Positions 5,866 to 38,030 of a stretch of DNA of 38,030 bases are shown here, in pieces; within the stretch, counting starts at the first letter, position 1; each line of letters opens with the position of its first letter. The stretch comes from Halorhabdus amylolytica (GTDB taxonomy: Archaea > Halobacteriota > Halobacteria > Halobacteriales > Haloarculaceae). The position numbers and the translations under genes were made by a program. The stretch lies in NCBI RefSeq assembly GCF_004944975.1, contig NZ_SPQG01000003.1:345622-383651 (forward strand). The letters run 5' to 3'. Under the pieces are notes generated by a model that ran no database searches, was not told the DNA's origin, and saw nothing but the letters and a program-made list of their open reading frames with translations.

Positions 5866-7707
5866 ATGTACGAACACGACGTTATCGTCGTCGGCGCGGG
5901 CGGCGCGGGTCTCCGGGCGGCGATCGCGGCCGCCGAGGAAGGCGCGGACGTGGCCATCGTCACGAAGCTCCATCCCGTCAGGAGTCACACGGGCGCGGCA
6001 GAAGGTGGGATCAACGCCGCGCTTCAGGAGGACGATTCCTGGCAGGATCACGCTTACGACACCATGAAGGGCTCGGACTTCCTGGGTGACGCCCCGGCGA
6101 TCGAGACCCTCACGAAGGACGCCCGGGAGGACGTCATCCAGCTGGAACACTGGGGGATGCCATTCTCCCGCGAGGAGGACGGCACGGTCTCCCAGCGGCC
6201 CTTCGGCGGTCTCTCGTACCCCCGGACGACCTACGCGGGCGCGGAGACCGGCCACCACCTGCTGCACACGATGTACGAGCAGGTGGTCAAGCGGGGTATC
6301 GAGGTCTACGAGGAGTGGTACGTCACCGACCTCGCGGTGACTGACGAGGACGATCCCGAGGAACGGACCTGCCACGGCGTCGCCGCATACGACATCAAGA
6401 ATGGCGATATCGAGGGATTTCACGCCCGCGACGGCGTGATCCTGGCGACTGGCGGACTCGGCCAGGTGTTCGATCACACGACGAACGCGGTCGCCAACAC
6501 CGGCGACGGCCAGGCCATGGCCTACCGCGCCGGAGTCCCCCTAGAGGACATGGAGTTTGTCCAATTCCATCCCACGTCGTTGCCCTCGACAGGCGTGCTC
6601 ATCTCCGAGGCCGTCCGGGGGGAGGGCGGCATCCTTTACAATTCGGAGGGCGAGCGGTTCATGTTCGAGTACGGCTACGCCAACAACGAGGGCGAACTTG
6701 CTTCCCGTGACGTGGTCTCCCGGGCGGAACTCACCGAAGTCAACGAGGGCCGCGGGATCGAAGACGAGTACGTCCATCTTGACATGCGTCACCTCGGCGA
6801 GGAGCGTATCATGGATCGCTTAGAGAACATCCTCCACCTCGCGGCGGACTTCGAGGGCGTCGACGGCTTAGAGGAGCCGATGCCGGTCAAACCCGGCCAG
6901 CACTACCAGATGGGCGGCATCGAGACCGACGAGAACGGCGAGACCTGCATCGAGGGGCTGTACGCCGCCGGGGAGTGTGCCTGCGTCTCCGTTCACGGGG
7001 CGAACCGACTCGGTGGCAATGCCCTCCCCGAACTGTTCGTCTTCGGCAAGCGCGCGGGCTATCACGCGGCAGGTCGGGACATGAAGACGGCCGAGATCCC
7101 GACCGGTCCCTCCGCCCGGAGTGAAACGAGCGATGTAAGTCCGGCAGTCGAGCCCGGCGCGATCGAACCCGGTACTAACGGGACAAACGAGGACGCCGTG
7201 GCCGACGGCGGTGCCCTCGCCGATCCGGAAACGGTCGTCGAGCGGGAAGTCGAGGGCGAACGCGATCACATCGAAGGTCTCCTCGAACGGGACGGGACCA
7301 ACCACGCCGACATCCGGGCGGACGTCCAGGAGACGATGACGGAGTACGTCAACGTCTTCCGGACCGAGGAAGGGATCGAGACGGCGCTCGAAGACCTTCA
7401 GGAGGCCCGTCGCGACTATCAAGACGTCGCCGTCGAGGACCCTTCCCGGACGTTCAACACCGACCTCATCCACACCTTAGAGACGCGCAACATCATCGAC
7501 CTCGCGGAGACGATCGCGCTGGGTGCGCTGGCACGCACGGAGTTCCGCGGCGCTCACTGGCGGGCCGAACACCAGACCCGCAAGGACGACGAGTGGCTCA
7601 AACACACGATGATCGCCTGGAACGACGGCGACCTGGATCTCTATTACGTCCCTGTGATCCTCGAGGGCGAGGACAAGACCTACGAGCCGGTCGATCGGAG
7701 TTACTGA
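5866..7707 (+). CDS. sdhA: Succinate dehydrogenase flavoprotein subunit SdhA
   Basis: The 613-residue catalytic subunit oxidises succinate to fumarate in the citric acid cycle. The FAD-binding Rossmann motif VVGAGGAGLRAA is at residues 8-19. His41 in RSHTGAAEGGINAAL is the expected site of covalent FAD attachment. The dicarboxylate-site block is HPTSLPSTGVLISEAVRGEGG, and HGANRLGGNALPELFVFGKRAG closes the FAD domain. A low-complexity insert (about residues 410-470, rich in Glu, Pro, Thr and Asp) splits the end of the FAD domain from the C-terminal helical domain, as is common in haloarchaeal SdhA. ATG at 5866 gives the usual MYEHDVIVVG start, 5 bp after the sdhB stop. A GTG at 5857 is in frame but overlaps sdhB and is less likely. 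Confidence 0.95.
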   Translation: MYEHDVIVVGAGGAGLRAAIAAAEEGADVAIVTKLHPVRSHTGAAEGGINAALQEDDSWQDHAYDTMKGSDFLGDAPAIETLTKDAREDVIQLEHWGMPFSREEDGTVSQRPFGGLSYPRTTYAGAETGHHLLHTMYEQVVKRGIEVYEEWYVTDLAVTDEDDPEERTCHGVAAYDIKNGDIEGFHARDGVILATGGLGQVFDHTTNAVANTGDGQAMAYRAGVPLEDMEFVQFHPTSLPSTGVLISEAVRGEGGILYNSEGERFMFEYGYANNEGELASRDVVSRAELTEVNEGRGIEDEYVHLDMRHLGEERIMDRLENILHLAADFEGVDGLEEPMPVKPGQHYQMGGIETDENGETCIEGLYAAGECACVSVHGANRLGGNALPELFVFGKRAGYHAAGRDMKTAEIPTGPSARSETSDVSPAVEPGAIEPGTNGTNEDAVADGGALADPETVVEREVEGERDHIEGLLERDGTNHADIRADVQETMTEYVNVFRTEEGIETALEDLQEARRDYQDVAVEDPSRTFNTDLIHTLETRNIIDLAETIALGALARTEFRGAHWRAEHQTRKDDEWLKHTMIAWNDGDLDLYYVPVILEGEDKTYEPVDRSY

Positions 7708-7887
7708 GAGGGCACGGAGCACCTGTTTGTCGAACGTGCCTACCGAAGCGGAAAATGGCAGTGATGGCTAGGAGCATACGGAACTATTGTGAGAAGTCGA
7801 AGGGTGTCGGACACACACCACGACTCCACTGAGCGATCGGTGACACCACGAAGCACCTGAGGGACAATACCAGCAAAGGTCGGAGCT

Positions 7888-9366
7888 TCAAACAAAATCG
7901 CCAAGCCCGGTCTGTTCATCGTCGTCAGCTGCCTGGTCGTCGGCAGTCGAGCTATCGTCAGTCTCGCTTTTCCCACCTGGCTCCTCGTCCGCGCTCTCGG
8001 AAGCACTCGCAGCCGACTCGGTCTCGGTCGAGCCCCCGTCGTCGTTCATCCCCTCACCCGGTTCGAAGGCCCCTTCGGAAGCGTCGACGGCCGCTTGTTC
8101 CCGCAGTTGTTGGGCGTCCTCGACGATCGATTGGACCTTGTTGGTGTCCTCGCCGCTGCCCGTGACGAAGGCAACGTGTTCGGGTTCGAGATCGTAGCGG
8201 GCGGCCATCGCCACCGTCAGCTCGCGGTTCTTACAGTGGTGGGTCATCGTCTCCAGATAGGGGACGACCTCACGACGGGCCGTACTCATGCTGACACCGT
8301 TGGTCCGGGCGATCGCCCGTGCCACGTCGTCTCGCGTCGATCGTGCCCCTTTTGTCCGCCCGAGTTTCGACCAGTAACTCGGCGGGCCGTAACGCGTCCA
8401 GCCACCTTTCTCGCCGTCCCGCGCGGCGGCGACGCCGGCGGTCATGTTATCGGCGGCGTACCGCCAGAAGGAGTAGTTCTGGGTGGCCCGGACGCGGCCG
8501 AGCCATCGATCCGCCGTCGAGAGCGATCGGTACGCGTTCGCGAGCTCGGTCCCCTCGTAGTCCTTGGGCATGTTGTCCTCGATCCAGGAGATGAGATCGT
8601 CGGGCGTCTCGTCGACGTCGTAAGATTCCTCTAAGGCCTCCTGGGCGTCGGCTTCCTTGAGAACGGAGTCAAGATAGTCGAAGATACCAGTCGTCCGGTC
8701 GCGCTGGCCGGTGACGACGTCCTCGCTGGTCAGTGTCTCCTCGCCCTCGGCGATCGCCTGGAGGTCCTTGATCGCCCCGCGGAGATCGCCGCCGTTCATC
8801 TCGGCGATCTCTGTGAGGGCGTTATCCTCGAAATCGATCCCCTCCTGGCGACAGATGTCCCGCAGGACGGGTACGATCGACCGCGTGGAGATGTCCCGGA
8901 ACTCGATGTCACGGCAGGCGTTCCGGAGCCCTCTGCTCATCTCGTAGAACTCGTTGGCGATCAGGACCATCGGCTGGTCGGCCTCCTTGACGAGGGCGGT
9001 GATCGCCCGCGTCCCGCCCCGATCGACGTTGCCGTGGAGATTGTCGGCCTCGTCTAAGATAACGAGTCTTCGGCCTGCTCCGCCCTCCGTAAGCGTCCCG
9101 CTTTTGGCGGCCTCACCGGCCACCCGCTCGATAACGTCTTTCGTCCGGGTGTCACTCGCGTTGAGTTCGATTGTCGGCCACTCCAGGTCCGCCGCCAGCG
9201 CGTGGGCCGCGGAGGTCTTCCCGACGCCCGGCGAACCATGAAGGATGACCGCCTCACGGTGGTCGGGCCAGGACTCGGCCCATTCCTGGAATGCGTCGCG
9301 GGCCTTGTCGTTGCCACGCACCTCCGTCAGAGTCGAGGGGCGATGTTTCTCCGTCCAATCTGCCAT
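7888..9366 (-). CDS. rfcL: Replication factor C large subunit (clamp loader)
   Basis: The protein loads the PCNA sliding clamp onto primed DNA together with the RFC small subunit. It has 492 residues. The Walker A motif GSPGVGKT is at residues 44-51 and Walker B is LVILDEADN near residue 105. A sensor region follows, then the RFC collar domain (RSLSTADRWLGRVRATQNYSFWRYAADNMT). The last 80 residues are a Ser/Glu/Asp-rich tail ending in QTGLGDFV, a good PCNA-interacting (PIP) box (Q-x-x-L-x-x-F-V) at the extreme C-terminus, as in other archaeal RfcL. The MADWTEKHRPSTLTEVRGN opening is the family N-terminus, which fixes the start. It is transcribed towards sdhA (convergent, 180 bp apart). Confidence 0.95.
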   Translation of the reverse strand: MADWTEKHRPSTLTEVRGNDKARDAFQEWAESWPDHREAVILHGSPGVGKTSAAHALAADLEWPTIELNASDTRTKDVIERVAGEAAKSGTLTEGGAGRRLVILDEADNLHGNVDRGGTRAITALVKEADQPMVLIANEFYEMSRGLRNACRDIEFRDISTRSIVPVLRDICRQEGIDFEDNALTEIAEMNGGDLRGAIKDLQAIAEGEETLTSEDVVTGQRDRTTGIFDYLDSVLKEADAQEALEESYDVDETPDDLISWIEDNMPKDYEGTELANAYRSLSTADRWLGRVRATQNYSFWRYAADNMTAGVAAARDGEKGGWTRYGPPSYWSKLGRTKGARSTRDDVARAIARTNGVSMSTARREVVPYLETMTHHCKNRELTVAMAARYDLEPEHVAFVTGSGEDTNKVQSIVEDAQQLREQAAVDASEGAFEPGEGMNDDGGSTETESAASASESADEEPGGKSETDDSSTADDQAADDDEQTGLGDFV

Positions 9367-9506: not shown

Positions 9507-10499
9507 TCAGAGGTACGACTGGCGTTTGAAGTACAGTACCATCAGTGCCGCGACGCCGGCCATGCCGAGCATGACGGCGGGGTAGCCGAACTCCCAGGCG
9601 AGTTCAGGCATGTTGTAGGGACTGTCAGCGAAGTTCATGCCATAGACGCCGACGACGAAGGTCAGCGGGATGAAGATCGTCGCGACGACAGTCAGGACCT
9701 TCATCACCTCGTTGGTCGACTGTGAGAGGGCATTGAGGTAGATGTCCCGTGTCCCGACCACCAGATCGCGATACGTTTCGAGGAGATCGACCAGTTGCAC
9801 CAGGTGGTCGTAGACATCCCGGTAGTACTTTTGGGTGTCCGCCTGGATCGCGCGAACGTCGCCGCGGGCGAGTACCGCCAGCGTCTCCCGGACCGGCCAG
9901 ACGACTTTCCGGAAGGACAGTAACTCGCGACGAACGCTATTGATCTCCCCGAGGAGGTCGGCGTCCGGGGACTCGACGACCTCGTCCTCGATCGCCTCGA
10001 TCTGTGCTTCCAGGTGTTCGAGGACATCGAAGTAACTGTCGACGAGGACATCGAGGACACGATAGGCAGTGAAGTCCGGACCGCGTTCGAGCAGGCGCTC
10101 GTCCCCGCGACGGACGGCCTCTTGAACCCGGGTGATCGACTCGGCGCTGCCGGTGGCGACGGTCACGAGCCAGTCCTCGCCGATGAAGACGCCGACCGGC
10201 TCGTCGTCGATCTCCTCCTCGAACGTCGTCTCGCCGCGTGTGAGTCGGGCGGTCTTGACCAGGGCAAAGGTGTACGTGCTGAACTCCTCGGCCTTCGCGC
10301 GGACGTCGTTGCGGACGTCCTCGATCGCCAGCGGGTGGAGATCGAACGCGTCGGCGACGGCGTCGATCTCCTCGGTTGTCGCCTCGTGGACGTGTACCCA
10401 GGTCGTTCCCGTCGCAGCCCGTGCCGCCGCGAGGTCATCGTAGGATTCGACGCCCGCCCCGTCGTAGACGAGTGCGTCGATCACGTCGGTCCACCCCAC
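9507..10499 (-). CDS. corA: CorA-type magnesium/cobalt transporter
   Basis: The 330-residue protein belongs to the CorA metal ion transporter family, pentameric channels for Mg2+ (also Co2+ and Ni2+). The long N-terminal part is the acidic cytoplasmic funnel with a helical coiled stalk (about residues 140-260, including HLEAQIEAIEDEVVESPDADLL). The signature YGMNF at the pore mouth follows the first transmembrane helix (VLTVVATIFIPLTFVVGVYGMNF). The second helix and a basic tail (FKRQSYL) end the protein. All family landmarks and the length are normal. The start ATG at 10497-10499 lies inside the end of the small upstream ORF, so the two are probably cotranscribed and coupled. Confidence 0.93.
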   Translation of the reverse strand: MGWTDVIDALVYDGAGVESYDDLAAARAATGTTWVHVHEATTEEIDAVADAFDLHPLAIEDVRNDVRAKAEEFSTYTFALVKTARLTRGETTFEEEIDDEPVGVFIGEDWLVTVATGSAESITRVQEAVRRGDERLLERGPDFTAYRVLDVLVDSYFDVLEHLEAQIEAIEDEVVESPDADLLGEINSVRRELLSFRKVVWPVRETLAVLARGDVRAIQADTQKYYRDVYDHLVQLVDLLETYRDLVVGTRDIYLNALSQSTNEVMKVLTVVATIFIPLTFVVGVYGMNFADSPYNMPELAWEFGYPAVMLGMAGVAALMVLYFKRQSYL

Positions 10500-10645
10500 G
10501 ACCCGCGTCCGATCACGACGAGCGTCAGCCCGACCATCATCGCCGTCAGCGAGAACGCCCGACCGGGATAGGCCAGAAGCGTACCGACGGCGTATCCACA
10601 GAGGCCGAAACCGGTAGTTACGACCCCGAGGAACAGTACCCGCAT
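10481..10645 (-). CDS. 54-residue two-helix membrane protein overlapping the corA start
   Basis: An ORF from ATG (10643-10645) to TGA (10481-10483) encodes 54 residues with two hydrophobic helices: LFLGVVTTGFGLCGYAVGTL and AFSLTAMMVGLTLVVIG, joined by a short loop containing YPGR. It overlaps the corA start by 19 bp in a different frame, an arrangement suggesting translational coupling. A T-run (CTTTTTTCG on the minus strand) lies 25-33 bp before its ATG, suiting a leaderless promoter. The opposite strand and other frames here give only implausible proteins. It could be an accessory peptide of the transporter or simply a neighbour; no family was recognised. Confidence 0.65.
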   Translation of the reverse strand: MRVLFLGVVTTGFGLCGYAVGTLLAYPGRAFSLTAMMVGLTLVVIGRGSWGGPT

Positions 10646-10668
10646 ATCCGCCCGCTCGTGGGCCGACG

Positions 10669-10678
10669 AAAAAAGCCT
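10669..10678 (-). promoter_or_regulatory. T-rich promoter element of the small membrane ORF and corA
   Basis: The minus strand carries a run of six T residues within CTTTTTTCG, about 25-33 bp upstream of the ATG of the 54-residue ORF. It is the most AT-rich point of the gap and the natural place for TBP to bind. The next gene on the other side is divergent, so this gap holds two promoters. Confidence 0.4.
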
Positions 10679-10830
10679 TCGCGTGGCACCGATCGTATCA
10701 GGTTCGATCGACGGAAACGTCGATCACGTTTCGGAGAACGCGGTCCGCGGGACTGTCGCTGTCTCCAGATTCGATCTGATCGGGCTCGGGGAGGGGTGTT
10801 CCTGTTTCCCTTCCGGATAGATCGGGAACA

Positions 10831-10836
10831 TTAAGC
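10831..10836 (+). promoter_or_regulatory. Likely TATA box of the PfkB-family gene
   Basis: TTAAGC lies 25-30 bp before the ATG at 10861, preceded by purine-rich GGGAACA that could act as the TFB recognition element. The spacing again fits a leaderless transcript and supports 10861 as the start. Confidence 0.4.
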
Positions 10837-10860
10837 GGAGGGGGGTTGAACCAGGTTGGT

Positions 10861-11796
10861 ATGAGTTCACTCGTCACCGTCGGCGAAACGCCGTTACGTG
10901 TCTCACCGCCCGACAATCGGCAGTTCGTCGACGCCCGAGAAGTCGGGCTGGCGGCGGCCGGAACCGAGAGCAATGTCGCAATCACCGCGGCCTGTCTGGG
11001 TGCGGACAGCGTCTGGGCGTCGCGGTTGCCGGCGACCCAGCTCGGGCGGCGAGTCGTCGCCGAGATCCGCGAATACGGCGTCGACCCCGACGTCACCTGG
11101 GCCCAAGAGGGTCGGGTCGGGTTAGAGTTCACTCAGCGCGGAGTTCCGCCCCGGGAGCCAATTGTCATCCAGGATCGCATCGAAGCGACGGCCGCCTCGA
11201 TGACGCCAAGTGACCTTCCGATGGAGCGCGTCCAGGCAGCCGACGGCACCTTCGTCTCCGGGAGTACCGCTGCGCTCTCTTCGATCACGATCGACACACT
11301 GGTAGCAGTCCTCGGGGCAGGGAGAGCCGATGGTGGATTAACAGTCTTTGATCTGGATTACCGACCCCGGCTCTGGGACGCCGAAGAGGCCCGTGAATCA
11401 CTCACCGACGTCTTCGAGGCTACAGACGTGTTGATCGCGAACGAGGACCAGTTGCGTACTGTCTTCGGCCGAACGGGTGATCCTCACCAGGTCGCCCACG
11501 GCGTCGCCTCACAGTGGGACTTCGAGATGTTAGCGATGACCCGTGGCGAACACGGCGCGCTGGTCATCCACGACAGTGTCCTGCACGAATGTGAGAGTAT
11601 CGACACCGAAACCGTCGACGCAGCTGGTCAACACGCCGCGTTCGTGGGGGCGTTCGTCCGGACGCTCCTCGAGGACGAGGGACCCGACAGCGCGCTGTAC
11701 GACGGTGTCGCCGCCGCGACCGTCGCACGGACGCTCCCCGGGCCGATCCCCGCCGTAGACCCTGATGACGTCCAGGACGTCCGGGCGAAGCTCTGA
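10861..11796 (+). CDS. PfkB-family sugar kinase-like protein lacking the catalytic Asp
   Basis: The 311-residue protein aligns by eye along its whole length with haloarchaeal 2-keto-3-deoxygluconate kinase-type PfkB proteins. The shared parts are the VGETPLRVSPP opening, GLAAAGTESNVAITAACLGADSVWASRLP, FDLDYRPRLWDAEEARESL and AMTRGEHGALVI. In active family members the C-terminal motif is DTxGAGDAF, whose GAGD forms the anion hole and supplies the catalytic base. Here it reads DAAGQHAAF: the second Gly is His and the catalytic Asp is Ala259. The rest of the fold is intact, with no stop or frameshift. It may therefore be a pseudokinase, a ligand-binding regulator or an enzyme with altered chemistry. 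The ATG at 10861 gives the family start; a codon at 10846 is also in frame. Confidence 0.8.
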   Translation: MSSLVTVGETPLRVSPPDNRQFVDAREVGLAAAGTESNVAITAACLGADSVWASRLPATQLGRRVVAEIREYGVDPDVTWAQEGRVGLEFTQRGVPPREPIVIQDRIEATAASMTPSDLPMERVQAADGTFVSGSTAALSSITIDTLVAVLGAGRADGGLTVFDLDYRPRLWDAEEARESLTDVFEATDVLIANEDQLRTVFGRTGDPHQVAHGVASQWDFEMLAMTRGEHGALVIHDSVLHECESIDTETVDAAGQHAAFVGAFVRTLLEDEGPDSALYDGVAAATVARTLPGPIPAVDPDDVQDVRAKL

Positions 11797-32961: not shown

Positions 32962-33019
32962 ACGACCCACGCACCCGATTCGTTATCGATACGACCCACG
33001 CACCCGATTCGTTATCGAT
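32962..33019. repeat. Perfect 29-bp tandem duplication
   Basis: Two identical 29-bp units (32962-32990 and 32991-33019) begin ACGACCCACGCACCC and end GTTATCGAT. The right copy contains the stop codon and final codon region of the minus-strand membrane winged-helix gene. The left copy therefore repeats the end of that gene plus its 3' flank. Confidence 0.95.
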
Positions 33020-33551
33020 TCAAGAGTGCACGCGCGTACAACCAGCGTCGCGACCAGAGTTGGTAGGCCGTCGAGACAGCCAGGACGAACAACAACACGG
33101 TCGCGAACACGAGAGTCTCACCGAGCGCGAACGGGGGCAGACCCGTCTCCGCCCCGACGATCGCGAAGAGACCGAAAACCCCCACCGTCCGGTAGTAGGT
33201 GCTCCAGGAGATGCCCAACCCCGTCACGACGTTCATGTAGGGTTCGATCTCTCTAGCTCGCTCGCGGAGTCGAACACGCTTTCGGTCCCTGTCGTACTGG
33301 ACGATGCCGAGCGAGTCCAACTTGGGTAGGTGTGTCTGGTGAAGCGAGTTGTAGACGCTCTGTCTGATGTTCGTCGGCGGCGGCGAGGAACCGGTCTCCC
33401 GGGACGCGATCCGCTCGGCCAGCCTCCGCAACGGTACCGGATCGATGTGCTGCTTGAGATACTCAAGCACCCGGCGGCGACGGTCGTTTCGGAGGACGTC
33501 GTGGACCTCCTCCGGATCGATACGTGTCTGTCTAACTGCGAGGGCTCCCAT
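33012..33551 (-). CDS. Membrane-anchored winged-helix protein (DUF7344-like)
   Basis: The 179-residue protein has an N-terminal winged-helix domain (about residues 12-100: IDPEEVHDVLRNDRRRRVLEYLKQH, then SVYNSLHQTHLPKLDSLGIVQYDRDRKRV, the recognition-helix and wing region). Two transmembrane helices follow (YRTVGVFGLFAIVGA and LVFATVLLFVLAVSTAY). Haloarchaea have many such proteins (remembered as DUF7344), often beside surface-protein genes, as here with the divergent SipW-type array. It may sense the membrane or cell surface and regulate its neighbours. The ATG at 33549-33551 follows a purine-rich GGGAGTGGGACACC. An AT-rich box at 33617-33630 gives a leader of about 40 bases. Confidence 0.8.
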   Translation of the reverse strand: MGALAVRQTRIDPEEVHDVLRNDRRRRVLEYLKQHIDPVPLRRLAERIASRETGSSPPPTNIRQSVYNSLHQTHLPKLDSLGIVQYDRDRKRVRLRERAREIEPYMNVVTGLGISWSTYYRTVGVFGLFAIVGAETGLPPFALGETLVFATVLLFVLAVSTAYQLWSRRWLYARALLNR

Positions 33552-33872: not shown

Positions 33873-35774
33873 ATGTCAGAACGATACGAACTGTCCCGGC
33901 GAAAAGTGCTTGCGGGGTTGGGGACGATCGGCCTCGCAGGTGCCGGAGCCGGATTCGGTACGACGGCGTACTTCAGTGACGAAGAGACATACGAGAACAA
34001 CACGCTGACCGCGGGTGCGCTCGACCTGACGGTCGACTGGGAGGAACATTACTACAACGGCGTGGATACCGTTGACGTCGACGTCATGTACGACGAACCC
34101 GAAGATCCGGAGGGATACGTCGGCCTCCCTAACCCGAACAGTCCCTCCGTGTGGGTCGCGGCCGAGGACCTCGCTACGTTCATGGACGGGACGTCGATCG
34201 AGGCCTACCCGGACGACAACGACGACGGTGTCCAGGATCCTGTCCTCTACGGCGACACGACCGGGGAAGAAGAGCTCGAGTACATGCCGTGTGAGGACTT
34301 CGCACAGACGCCCGAGGATCTCGATCCGGACGGCGGTCGTGCGTTGCGGTCGCTCAACATGGATACGGTGGCGAACTGGCCCCTCGAAGAGGGCGAGGAC
34401 GCCGAACCCAAGCCACTCGTGAGTTTAGAGGACGTCAAACCGGGCGACTTCGGGGAACTCACGCTCAGCTTCCACCTGTGTGACAACCCGGGATACGTCT
34501 GGCTCACCGGCGAGCTGATCGAGGCGGCCGAGAACGGCCACACGGAACCAGAGGCCGAGGATCCCCAGGAAATGGGCGGGCCGAACACGTCGAACTCGAC
34601 CGGTAACGACGTCGAACTCATCGACGAGATCCAGACGATGCTGTGGTACGACGAAGACGGCGACAACGTCTACGAGCCAAGTGGCGAAGCCGGCGAGGCC
34701 GACATCGTGCTCGTCCTGGATCGCTCGGGTTCGATGAGCGGTGGTGGACTCTCGGCCGCACAAAGTGCGGCGATCAACCTGATCGATGCAGTCGGATCCA
34801 ACGCCCAGATCTCCGTGGTTTCGTTCGCCGACCAGGCGACAATGGACCAGTCGCTGACCGGTACCAAACAGGACGCGCGCGACGCCGTGAACGCGCTGTC
34901 TCCGGGCGGCGGGACCAACATCGAGGAGGCCATCGACATCGCTCACGAGGAACTCGACGGCCACGACGTTGCCACGACGTATTCCGCCAGCGGGAACAAT
35001 CGTAGCGGTGCCCAGCCGATCATCGTGCTCCTCACGGACGGCTCGCCGAACGAGAGCTACGAGAGTCAGGGACTCTCCGATCCGAGTCACGACGACGACA
35101 CCGACAGCGCGTCGACTGATTTCAGCGGGTTCGGGGATGCCAACCCGGCGGACAACGCCGAACACCTGAAAGAGAGCGTCCACGACGTGTCGATGTACAC
35201 TGTCGGGTTCGGGGGTATCTCCTCCGGGTCAACCAACGCCGCGCTGCTCAATTACATGGCGACCGACGACGCGCAGTCCTTCATCGGCGCCCAGAGCGAA
35301 CTGTTCGACATCTTCAGCCAGATCGCGCAGTCGATCGCGGGTGAAAAGGCGCTCTTCCAGGGATCGCTGCGCGAACTGCTGGACGAACTCGGGATGGGAA
35401 GTAACGGCATCCCGCTGGACGGCAACCGAACGTCGAACTTCGACGAGGTTCCCGGTGACGGACTGAACGACGAAGATCCGAGCGAGCAGGACGCGGATGC
35501 GAGGGACTGTTTCGTCCCCAGCACGACGAACGCCCTCGGACTCGCGTGGTGGCTACCGGTCGATCACGCCAACGAGATCCAGACCGACAGCGTGAGCTTC
35601 GATCTCGGGTTCTACACCGAACAGTGCCGGCACAACACCGGCAGTGGGATGGAGGCCGAGACGACGGCCATGGAGACTGAGACCGAGACAGCGACCGAAA
35701 CAGCGACCGTGACTGAGACCGAGACAGCGACCGAAACAGCGACCGCGACTGACACCACGACCACGCAGAGTTGA
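33873..35774 (+). CDS. SipW/TasA-type secreted protein with inserted vWA domain (array copy 1)
   Basis: The 633-residue protein begins MSERYELSRRKVLAGLGTIG. The leader combines an SRRK twin-arginine-like motif, a Gly/Ala-rich core and the SipW-type end TTAYFSDEETYENNTLTAGALDL. The first part of a TasA/camelysin-like beta domain follows, including VKPGDFGELTLSFHLCDNPGYVWL. At residues 277 to about 485 a von Willebrand A domain is inserted: MIDAS DRSGSMSG, the Thr of GGGTNIEEA and LLTDGSPN are all intact. The beta domain then resumes at ALFQGSLRELLDELG and WWLPVDHANEIQTDSVSFDLGFYTEQCRHN. The tail is a Thr/Glu/Ala repeat of about 45 residues. It is probably exported and bound to the surface or biofilm matrix, with the vWA domain binding a ligand through a metal. 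A GGAG sits 6-9 bp before the ATG. Confidence 0.85.
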   Translation: MSERYELSRRKVLAGLGTIGLAGAGAGFGTTAYFSDEETYENNTLTAGALDLTVDWEEHYYNGVDTVDVDVMYDEPEDPEGYVGLPNPNSPSVWVAAEDLATFMDGTSIEAYPDDNDDGVQDPVLYGDTTGEEELEYMPCEDFAQTPEDLDPDGGRALRSLNMDTVANWPLEEGEDAEPKPLVSLEDVKPGDFGELTLSFHLCDNPGYVWLTGELIEAAENGHTEPEAEDPQEMGGPNTSNSTGNDVELIDEIQTMLWYDEDGDNVYEPSGEAGEADIVLVLDRSGSMSGGGLSAAQSAAINLIDAVGSNAQISVVSFADQATMDQSLTGTKQDARDAVNALSPGGGTNIEEAIDIAHEELDGHDVATTYSASGNNRSGAQPIIVLLTDGSPNESYESQGLSDPSHDDDTDSASTDFSGFGDANPADNAEHLKESVHDVSMYTVGFGGISSGSTNAALLNYMATDDAQSFIGAQSELFDIFSQIAQSIAGEKALFQGSLRELLDELGMGSNGIPLDGNRTSNFDEVPGDGLNDEDPSEQDADARDCFVPSTTNALGLAWWLPVDHANEIQTDSVSFDLGFYTEQCRHNTGSGMEAETTAMETETETATETATVTETETATETATATDTTTTQS

Positions 35775-35888
35775 TCAGTCACTCGGTTCCGGCTTGACTC
35801 GCACGGGAGTGGGGTGATCGTCTCGGGGACGATCGTTGCTCGGCGGTTCGACTCCGCCGGCGAGTTCTCCCCAGGGAGGGGGTCAGGT
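35775..35888 (+). repeat. First 114-bp array spacer
   Basis: The spacer is exactly as long as the next one and nearly identical to it, including TCAGTCACTCGGTTCCGG at its start and CCGGCGAGTTCTCCCCAGGG near its end. The differences cluster in one hairpin loop (about 35823-35829), at two neighbouring bases (35836-35838) and in the last 15 bp. It contains the tRNA-like fold described separately and ends with GGAGG, 9 bp before the next ATG. Confidence 0.9.
35796..35866 (+). other. tRNA-like 71-nt structure in spacer 1
   Basis: The outer stem GACTCGC/GCGAGTT (7 bp, one G-U) encloses two hairpins. The first is GATCGTC-TCGGG-GACGATC; read as a 5-bp stem with a 7-base loop it shows CTCGGGG, a tRNA-style loop with U33 and a CGG triplet. 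The second is CGGCGG-TTCGACT-CCGCCG, a T-arm with the B-box GGTTCGACTCC. No D-arm fits the 13-14 bases available, so it is not a normal tRNA gene. Confidence 0.5.
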
Positions 35889-37820
35889 ATGTCAGAACGA
35901 TACGAACTATCCCGGCGGAAAGTGCTCGCAGGGTTGGGGACGATCGGCCTTGCAAGTGCTGGCACCGGACTCGGCACGACGGCGTACTTCAGTGACGAGG
36001 AGACTTACGAGAACAACACGCTCACGGCTGGATCGCTCGATCTCAAGGTCGACTGGGAAGAACACTACTACGACGGATCAGTCGAAGGGGTAACTCTAGC
36101 AGACGACCCCACGAACGCGGATTACGTCCTGCCGGCACTCGAACCCCTCCAAGCGCCGAACGTCCTACAGAACGGGGAGTATCGGAAGGATGCTCCTGTC
36201 GGAACACTACAGGTCAGTTCCCCGGACGATGCACTCCCCATCGCGCTGAACTTCGACGACAAAGACGCCTTTTGGGACACAACAGCGATCGAGGCCTTCC
36301 CGGACGTCGACGACGACGGTGTCCAGGAGGATTTCCATGAAACCTACGAGGTGGGCGAAGGCGAGATCACCGTCGGTCCAGCCTGTGAAGCGGGTGCCGA
36401 TACGCCGGCGGATCTCGATCCGACCGCCGATGGTGCGCTCCGAACGCAGAACGACGATACCGTCGGTGAAGAAAGTTGGAAGCCGCTCGTCGCGCTTGAC
36501 GACGTCAAGCCGGGTGATTTCGGCGAACTCACCCTGAGTTTCCACCTGTGTGACAACCCGGGGTACGTCTGGTTGACGGGCGAACTGCTGGAAAATGATG
36601 AGAACTCGGTGACCGAACCCGAGGGTGCCGATCCTGACGAGGACCAGACTGCGGACGATCCTGGGGACGACTTCGACGGCGAGCTGACCGACCACATCAT
36701 GACGAGGATCTGGTACGACGAGGACTGCGACAATCAGGTCGACGAAGAGACAAAGGAGCTGGATATGATGCTCGCGATCGACACGTCCGGGTCGATCACC
36801 GACACCGAGCAGACCCAAATGATCGACGGCATCAACGCGTTCATCGACGATCTCCCTGACGACGGCAGCACCCAGGTCGGAGTTCTGAGTTTCGGCGGTG
36901 GTGCGATCAACGATCTGCAAGCACTTGATACTCCAGGCAACATCTCTGTGCCGGGATTTTCCTTCGGAGGGAACACGCCGCTCCCGGCGGCCCTCGACAC
37001 CGCCGATCAGATCCTCCGTAACGATCCCAACGCGCGATCCGACGCACAGAAGACGATCGTGGTGTTCACCGACGGCGGTCCTAACTACCAGAACCAAGAC
37101 TACGCCGTCAACGGGTACACCGCTCCCCGGGACGATACGACTGATTGGTCAGCTGCAAGCGGGAACTCCGCCTACGACAACGCCGACGCGGCGTCCGGGA
37201 CGGTCAGCGAAGCCGAAATGGACGAAACAGCACTGGTCGCCGAGTCCGTCCGGAACATGACCACGCGGATCGCAACCGTGTTCGTCGGCGATGATGATTC
37301 GACGGAAGCGATGACCCAGGACGCCGAAGACGAGTACGACACACTGCCAGCGTTCCTGGGGAACGAGATCGCCTCGGTTGGATTCAGCTTTACCGTCGAC
37401 TTCTCCGACCTGGAAAATCTGGCTACACAACTAGAGCAGTCGATCGTCGTCGGCGAGGAAGTGTTTTTCCTCGGCACACTCGGACAGGCCTTGAGTCGTC
37501 TCGAAGAAGGAAACGGCGTCCCGCTCGATGGGGATCTCTCCACAGCCTTCGACGAGCTTACAGATCCCGACGACGATGCGGATCGGGAGTGTTTCGAGGC
37601 GAGTTCGACCCACTGTGTCGGCTTCGAGTGGTGGTTGCCGCTGAACCACTCGAATCAGATCCAGACGGACTCAGTGGGCTTTGATATCGGGTTCTACACC
37701 GAGCAGTGCCGGCACAACACCGGCAGTGGGATGGAGGCCGAGACGACGGCCATGGAGACTGAGACCGAGACAGCGACCGAAACAGCAACCGCGACTGACA
37801 CCACGACCACGCAGAGTTGA
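35889..37820 (+). CDS. SipW/TasA-type secreted protein with inserted vWA domain (array copy 2)
   Basis: This 643-residue paralogue of copy 1 has a nearly identical leader (MSERYELSRRKVLAGLGTIGLASAGTGLGTTAYFSDEE, differing at a few sites). It shares the block VKPGDFGELTLSFHLCDNPGYVWL, and the vWA domain (residues 292 to about 518) keeps MIDAS DTSGSITD, the Thr of GGNTPLPAA and VFTDGGPN. After it the beta domain resumes with VFFLGTLGQALSRLEEGNGVPLDG and WWLPLNHSNQIQTDSVGFDIGFYTEQCRHN. The vWA interior and the first 150 residues differ greatly from copy 1, whereas the two ends are almost the same at DNA level. The Thr/Glu tail is shorter by one 12-residue unit. A GGAGG lies 9 bp before the ATG. 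Confidence 0.85.
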   Translation: MSERYELSRRKVLAGLGTIGLASAGTGLGTTAYFSDEETYENNTLTAGSLDLKVDWEEHYYDGSVEGVTLADDPTNADYVLPALEPLQAPNVLQNGEYRKDAPVGTLQVSSPDDALPIALNFDDKDAFWDTTAIEAFPDVDDDGVQEDFHETYEVGEGEITVGPACEAGADTPADLDPTADGALRTQNDDTVGEESWKPLVALDDVKPGDFGELTLSFHLCDNPGYVWLTGELLENDENSVTEPEGADPDEDQTADDPGDDFDGELTDHIMTRIWYDEDCDNQVDEETKELDMMLAIDTSGSITDTEQTQMIDGINAFIDDLPDDGSTQVGVLSFGGGAINDLQALDTPGNISVPGFSFGGNTPLPAALDTADQILRNDPNARSDAQKTIVVFTDGGPNYQNQDYAVNGYTAPRDDTTDWSAASGNSAYDNADAASGTVSEAEMDETALVAESVRNMTTRIATVFVGDDDSTEAMTQDAEDEYDTLPAFLGNEIASVGFSFTVDFSDLENLATQLEQSIVVGEEVFFLGTLGQALSRLEEGNGVPLDGDLSTAFDELTDPDDDADRECFEASSTHCVGFEWWLPLNHSNQIQTDSVGFDIGFYTEQCRHNTGSGMEAETTAMETETETATETATATDTTTTQS

Positions 37821-37934
37821 TCAGTCACTCGGTTCCGGCTTGACTCGCACGGGAGTGGGGTGATCGTCTTGCGTACGATCGCTCCTCGGCGGTTCGACTC
37901 CGCCGGCGAGTTCTCCCCAGGGTGGGGGCACACA
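37821..37934 (+). repeat. Second 114-bp array spacer
   Basis: It is the same length as the first spacer and has the same fixed blocks. Its tRNA-like fold keeps the outer stem (37842-37848 with 37906-37912) and the B-box arm. The middle hairpin changes to GATCGT-CTTGCGT-ACGATC, preserving the stem while the loop differs. The ribosome-binding region is GGTGGGGG, weaker than in spacer 1. Confidence 0.9.
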
Positions 37935-38030
37935 ATGACGGAACGATACGAACTGTCCCGGCGGAAAGTGCTTGCGGGGTTGGGGACGATCGGCCTTGCA
38001 AGTGCTGGCACCGGACTCGGCACGACGGCG
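37935..38030 (+). CDS. Third array copy: SipW-type secreted protein, 3' end outside window
   Basis: The last 32 codons begin MTERYELSRRKVLAGLG, the same leader as the two complete genes, with Thr instead of Ser at position 2. Over the 96 bases shown it is almost identical in DNA to copy 2. It confirms that the array continues to the right; whether it also has a vWA domain cannot be seen. Confidence 0.85.
   Translation, partial: MTERYELSRRKVLAGLGTIGLASAGTGLGTTA

Follow-up and report, generated by a model that had tools for sequence, protein, structure and literature searches.

The window, meaning the whole stretch of 38,030 nucleotides analyzed here, belongs, as positions 345622-383651 of contig C20, to a 3.46-Mb haloarchaeal draft genome and ends in a tandem array of genes for TasA-like proteins, of which the first two carry a vWA domain. 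Its features are as follows, gene lengths being counted from the leader Met.

33012..33551, minus strand: DUF7344 winged-helix gene with C-terminal transmembrane segments, divergent from the array (PF24035, E = 2e-30)
33873..35774, plus strand: gene 1, SipW/Tat leader, TasA-like beta-sandwich with inserted vWA, and Thr/Glu tail; 633 aa
33873..33968, plus strand: gene 1 leader, residues 1 to 32, with the SRRK Tat motif and a predicted cleavage between TTA and YF (in TTAYFSD), Phe being P2'
33969..34694, plus strand: gene 1 TasA-like domain, first part, from the N-terminal strand (candidate donor strand YFSDEETYENNTLTAGALDL) to the WYDEDGDN loop
34695..35342, plus strand: gene 1 inserted vWA, residues 275 to 490 (PF00092, E = 2e-19; AlphaFold2; Foldseek)
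34719..34733, plus strand: gene 1 MIDAS motif DRSGS (D283/S285/S287)
34914..34916 and 35037..35039, plus strand: T348 and D389, completing the gene 1 MIDAS
35343..35636, plus strand: gene 1 TasA-like domain, second part, from GSLRELLDEL to NEIQTDSVSFDLGFYTEQCRHN
35637..35771, plus strand: gene 1 Thr/Glu-rich C-terminal tail, without hydrophobic anchor (sequence; low pLDDT)
35600..35900, plus strand: gene 1 end, spacer, and gene 2 start, near-identical to the junction of genes 2 and 3 (93% over 251 nt)
35889..37820, plus strand: gene 2, architecture as gene 1; 643 aa
36756..37454, plus strand: gene 2 inserted vWA, residues about 290 to 522 (PF00092, E = 3e-10)
36780..36794, plus strand: gene 2 MIDAS motif DTSGS
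37455..37718, plus strand: gene 2 TasA-like domain, second part
37935..38030, plus strand: gene 3 leader, first 96 nt, cut by the window end

The first-pass annotation had recognized two complete genes and the start of a third, all sharing a SipW/Tat-like leader and flanked by a divergent winged-helix gene, and had proposed to look for a SipW-type signal peptidase nearby outside the window. This gene anatomy is borne out by the reading frames of 633 and 643 aa and by the third one starting at 37935, and the tandem array stands, but it extends further than first described, and a vWA is absent from its third member. Past the window (window coordinates equal those of the cluster locus, L005, plus 30379), gene 3 (about 7556-9114) encodes a TasA-like protein devoid of vWA and with an additional C-terminal stretch. 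It is followed by gene 4 (about 9657-10289), encoding a small leader-bearing TasA-like subunit, and by the anticipated archaeal/SipW-type signal peptidase gene (10229-11344), located ~2.6 kb past the end of the window. The peptidase matched TIGR02228 (7.5e-28) and the SipW model NF046067 (8.7e-26). Its score against the latter, 90.7 bits, is far under the curated cut-off of 190, and "SipW" is thus used here in the sense of SipW-type only. DUF7344 is present in just 3 copies in the 3.46-Mb genome, which holds only four matches to the peptidase family, so that the flanking of the array by both is not due to chance. Directly 3' of the peptidase lies a gene for a small secreted protein (about L005:11337-11846) with a SipW-like start, GTYGFLTDSES, and a Thr/Pro-rich tail, for which no family match was found. 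A 10-N assembly gap (L005:7652-7661) splits gene 3 just past its leader, and the window stops at this gap.

The TIGR04088 cognate_SipW domain was matched by the leaders of genes 1 and 2 with 24.3 and 28.5 bits, over the curated cut-off of 19, and both leaders carry the twin-arginine motif SRRK. The arginine pair is kept in 236 of 239 family members and the Phe at P2' in 216 of 233. In TasA, the P2' Phe makes the cleavage site a substrate of the ER-type SipW and not of P-type peptidases (PMC10269814).

Beyond the leader, the relationship to TasA could not be claimed from Pfam, since the match of the window proteins to PF12389 (camelysin/TasA) is limited to the leader and the first strand; profile-profile and fold tests were needed. 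A direct sequence search of the core of the insert-bearing family against solved structures returned no significant TasA match, and only a set of simple TasA-type proteins from haloarchaea, which are about 200 aa long, were collected via PF12389, and were aligned over 140 columns (set A5), bridges the array family to TasA. Leaderless vWA-less array members aligned with this set in hhalign with a probability of 98.7 (pairwise E, 2.6e-16). The A5 profile in turn reached Bacillus subtilis TasA (5of1, 1.9e-6; 8aur, 3.2e-6), the alignment running along the domain as far as its last strand; AbpX was also among its matches, without significance (E = 1.1). As to the fold, the model of a vWA-less homologue (L055:11909-13021), of moderate confidence (pLDDT 70.6), gave the TasA fiber 8aur as the top match when searched by Foldseek against the PDB (E = 2e-3, probability 1.00). 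Two donor-strand fibers, the archaeal cannula protein CanA and the 0406 thread filament, followed in ranks 2 and 8. TM-scores of this homologue against TasA were low (0.29/0.44, with an rmsd of 8 A), and the similarity is accordingly a fold match that does not provide a detailed model.

The vWA was claimed initially to sit inside one beta domain of a TasA-like protein, and both parts of this claim passed the tests, TasA-like identity through the hhalign and Foldseek results above and the insertion through the hhalign profile alignment. In the latter, the vWA flanks are shown to be two adjacent parts of one TasA-type domain, the sequence preceding the vWA corresponding to columns 5-69 and that following it to columns 104-139, out of the 140 of the same A5 template. 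Alignment with a vWA-less paralogue places the insertion point between WYDEDGDN and GSLRELLDEL, and we infer that the TasA loop hosting the insert lies near TLLTVGKEGGNGYPKN. The AlphaFold2 model of gene 1 (pLDDT 78, pTM 0.78), a check suggested at the outset, has confident strands on either side of a confident vWA.

A complete vWA with intact MIDAS residues was likewise confirmed in both window genes by their PF00092 matches (E = 2e-19 in gene 1 and 3e-10 in gene 2) and by all five ligands, i.e., D283-x-S285-x-S287, T348, and D389 in gene 1 and D298-x-S-x-S, T363, and D395 in gene 2. The Rossmann-type fold with DxSxS, Thr, and Asp metal ligands by which vWA membership is defined is present. 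In gene 1, pLDDT is mostly above 90 across residues 281-360, and Foldseek returned vWA/integrin I-domain matches with E values down to 9e-12. Among 55 homologues, D283, S287, and the core residues beside them never vary, and S285, T348, and D389 hardly do, while DxSxS is kept in 106 of 108 vWA inserts across the family. The Thr/Glu stalk first described at the end of each protein fared less well: such a tail does exist in the window genes (pLDDT below 50 over residues 597-633 of gene 1), but it is no conserved stalk, family tails being about 20 aa long, Gly/Thr/Asp/Pro-rich, and in no case provided with a hydrophobic anchor.

The same arrangement recurs well beyond this genome. When 84,980 species genomes were scanned, the best 80 of 126 relative-encoding stretches were taken and gave 72 loci, all haloarchaeal; with only the best 80 of 126 stretches considered, rarer occurrences elsewhere are not excluded. 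Arrays hold 2 to 7 paralogues, in 66 of the 72 loci a divergent DUF7344-type gene lies no more than 1.5 kb from the gene that opens the array, and a same-strand signal peptidase is found within 6 kb downstream in 61, usually adjoined by a small leader-bearing subunit. Some of the DUF7344 and peptidase misses correspond to contig ends or to loci ordered differently. The first-pass annotation had suggested that the divergent winged-helix gene may control the array, and its identity (PF24035, E = 2e-30) and conserved placement agree with this; the DUF7344 protein is likely the regulator of the array, the control itself being inferred. The 10-N gap at gene 3 and the near-identical gene ends might raise the suspicion of an assembly artifact or of decaying duplicates. 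We find this hardly credible, given that the arrangement is repeated in 72 independent haloarchaeal loci with frames and MIDAS intact and that genes 1 and 2 come from different old lineages. In a phylum-wide sample, the core was detected in 24 of 158 genomes, and the matches outside the order are short open reading frames, mostly of 200 to 290 aa. Those of seven genomes of the same phylum (G139, G185, G068, G060, G081, G100, and G056) are insert-free and TasA-like, and such extra-order frames are often clustered by two or three. They likely represent the ancestral form.

The vWA is not the only domain carried by this scaffold. When insert types were grouped by clustering, 113 proteins had a vWA in the same core loop (106 by HMM and 7 by similarity), whereas in five proteins (L115:11614-13491, L087:11498-13363, L067:4884-6668, L048:2830-4584, and L038:8606-10564) this loop holds an apparent beta-propeller instead of a vWA, with Pfam SGL, DUF6923, and Reg_prop signals that all remain under the cut-off. 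A "VKGGxxANVYSYD" domain occupies the next loop in 16 proteins, and a few further insert types exist. One protein (L038:18076-20994) displays PKD-like repeats, identified by eye, and another domain in a third loop of the core. On a tree built from core columns only, inserts excluded, the insert label changes 20 times, gain and loss being indistinguishable; the vWA-bearing core of L052 stands beside the propeller-bearing core of L067 (support, 95%), and an L093 core beside the vWA-bearing one of the same locus (support, 98). A single vWA clade, i.e., one origin of the vWA insertion, was rejected on this tree (p-AU, 6e-65), and inserts have thus been repeatedly gained, lost, or swapped on one scaffold.

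Genes 1 and 2 themselves fall into different, old sub-lineages of the core tree. Their vWA interiors share only 32 to 59% nucleotide identity in blocks, whereas the two tails reach 99% identity, and the gene 1/2 junction (35600-35900) and the gene 2/3 junction (37650-38030) are near-identical DNA, with 93% identity over 251 nt. Near-identical tails, spacers, and leaders around diverged interiors suggest a recent gene conversion of the ends. Homogenization of leaders across whole arrays by gene conversion was weak overall (71% amino acid identity within loci versus 62% between loci); leaders are barely more alike within arrays, and we therefore make no claim of general concerted evolution and restrict conversion to the tails and spacers of the window. 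Close cores with unlike inserts, such as the L052 and L067 pair, the rejection of a single vWA clade, and near-identical gene ends enclosing divergent vWA interiors could also be the mark of a diversity generator, in which inserts would vary for the recognition of kin or mating partners or for escape from viruses, without any fixed ligand. We give this reading little credence: the strong conservation of the MIDAS points to a retained metal-dependent ligand binding, and the homogenization of leaders within arrays is weak.

We favor, with moderate confidence, the interpretation of the locus as a haloarchaeal TasA-like surface fiber system displaying exchangeable adhesin domains, in which fiber formation and adhesion are inferred. 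In the absence of fiber, expression, or phenotype data, donor-strand exchange, surface position, and regulation are inferences as well. The proposed model is based on the following: (i) subunits would be exported via the Tat-type leader, (ii) which would be cleaved by the dedicated ER/SipW-type peptidase encoded at the cluster end, before (iii) polymerization by donor-strand exchange of the N-terminal strand, as in TasA and the archaeal bundling pili. The N-terminal strand of array proteins has a conserved aromatic N-terminus resembling the TasA donor strand FNDIKSKDATFASGTLDL, by sequence similarity only. Donation of this strand to the next subunit would result in surface fibers, an inference drawn from the literature on TasA and archaeal fibers (donor-strand model, PMC9674648, PMC10903470, PMC11952670). 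Insertions are tolerated in the loop that follows the TasA strand "VxxWYDxDGDN" and in neighboring loops, and the vWA MIDAS of genes 1 and 2 would bind a ligand on a surface, in the matrix, or on a partner cell, so that adhesive heads would decorate the fiber or sit at its tip. Mg2+ is abundant in brine. Plain subunits, e.g., gene 3, would make up the fiber backbone, the small subunit whose gene precedes that of the peptidase would initiate or terminate the fiber, and control of the cluster would fall to the divergent DUF7344 protein. Metal-dependent ligand binding by the vWA is inferred from vWA biology and by analogy with Mfa5, RrgA, and GBS104, and a matrix or adhesion role of the array proteins is likewise an inference. 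The vWA subunits may line the fiber or only cap its tip, and the vWA could hinder polymerization.

Polymerization does not follow from leader and fold alone, and fiber formation being only inferred, array proteins could also be secreted or surface-associated monomeric adhesins that keep the TasA-type fold and leader without polymerizing, in keeping with the variable and anchorless family tails. This appears unlikely to us, as arrays of 2 to 7 paralogues, a dedicated peptidase, and an aromatic N-terminus like the TasA donor strand constitute the pattern of donor-strand fibers. We also rather doubt that the vWA is purely structural, as a spacer or a fiber-fiber cross-linker in the matrix without external ligand, even though an exposed loop mediates fiber-fiber contact in TasA (PMC9674648) and the mussel matrix protein PTMP1, among the Foldseek matches (4cn8/4cn9), uses a metal-bound vWA; the presence of a beta-propeller and other unrelated folds at the same site fits binding heads better. 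Along the line of a fiber with exchangeable heads, we propose more tentatively, and with slightly more doubt than belief, a haloarchaea-wide modular fiber, in which a TasA-type scaffold would accept in several loops unrelated heads swapped repeatedly by recombination within arrays. Every lineage would then expose a set of heads of its own (vWA, beta-propeller, PKD-like, and others) for adhesion or cell recognition.

Several known systems share part of this architecture. Membership in the TasA/CalY group of Bacillus (tapA-sipW-tasA; 8aur, 5of1) was judged by a SipW-cognate leader with an aromatic P2', a dedicated ER/SipW-type peptidase in the cluster, and a full TasA-type beta-sandwich core beyond the leader, each of which was met. 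The array proteins share with Bacillus TasA the KPGD...NxxQGDSVxxxFxFxxxQ core and a predicted beta-sandwich whose best fold match is 8aur, but differ by the Tat-type leader, the 2 to 7 paralogues, the loop-inserted domains, the divergent DUF7344 regulator, and a terminal subunit in place of a recognized TapA, and the haloarchaeal fiber is only inferred. The archaeal bundling pili AbpA/AbpX of Pyrobaculum and the cannulae of Pyrodictium have an archaeal TasA-like fold in common with the array, CanA being the second-best match. In the parts of the sources available to us, they are described as TasA-like donor-strand fibers, and inserted adhesin domains are not reported for them there (PMC9674648, PMC10903470, PMC11952670). 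As for the insert, Mfa5 of type V fimbriae, RrgA, and GBS104 carry a vWA between strands of a fimbrial beta-sandwich, thought to be an adhesive head, and a vWA with MIDAS inserted in this way is shared by Mfa5, RrgA, GBS104, and PitA with the array (PMC7835359); RrgA (2ww8), Mfa5, and PitA were among the matches to array proteins. These tip adhesins are single tip proteins with CnaA/IgG-like hosts and isopeptide bonds, relying on sortase or type V assembly, whereas in the haloarchaeal array the TasA-type domain itself acts as host in several paralogues, and its insertion site also accepts other domains. The CnaA-like Ig host defining the Mfa5/RrgA type is thus not matched: a vWA is inserted, but its host matches TasA-type proteins.

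The first-pass annotation knew of no described system of this kind. We found no description of vWA-bearing TasA-like archaeal proteins in open-access full texts, a corpus without subscription papers, and the closest annotated NCBI names are generic ("vWA domain-containing protein" and "SipW-dependent-type signal peptide-containing protein"). That claim stands in this respect, but not for the vWA within a beta-sandwich, which is known from bacterial tip adhesins (PMC7835359). Fiber type and vWA-in-beta-sandwich are each known; their combination in multigene haloarchaeal arrays with interchangeable heads is new. If the proposed model holds true, haloarchaea would possess a TasA-type fiber with adhesive heads that requires no chaperone-usher, sortase, or type IV machinery, the insertion of a vWA in a fiber beta-sandwich would have evolved independently in archaea, and the array would provide a natural example of a fiber subunit tolerating whole-domain insertions at a fixed loop. 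A single gene cluster opens cell-cell sticking and biofilm formation of haloarchaea beyond type IV pili to direct testing.

Simple haloarchaeal TasA/M73-type genes have the same leader and the same core and adjoin their own peptidase, but unlike the array they encode proteins of about 200 aa, without inserts and without a large array. The genome studied here has such a locus on contig C10 (L006:8201-10911), where two TasA-type proteins of ~200 aa are encoded together with an archaeal signal peptidase of their own. The Haloferax volcanii genome, searched as a control, gave no match to PF12389. In addition, the array leaders resemble a solved "Pilin" of 215 aa (PDB 9p0a, chain C; leader match alone, E = 0.012), which, from this sequence resemblance, could possibly be a member of another SipW-type archaeal fiber family.
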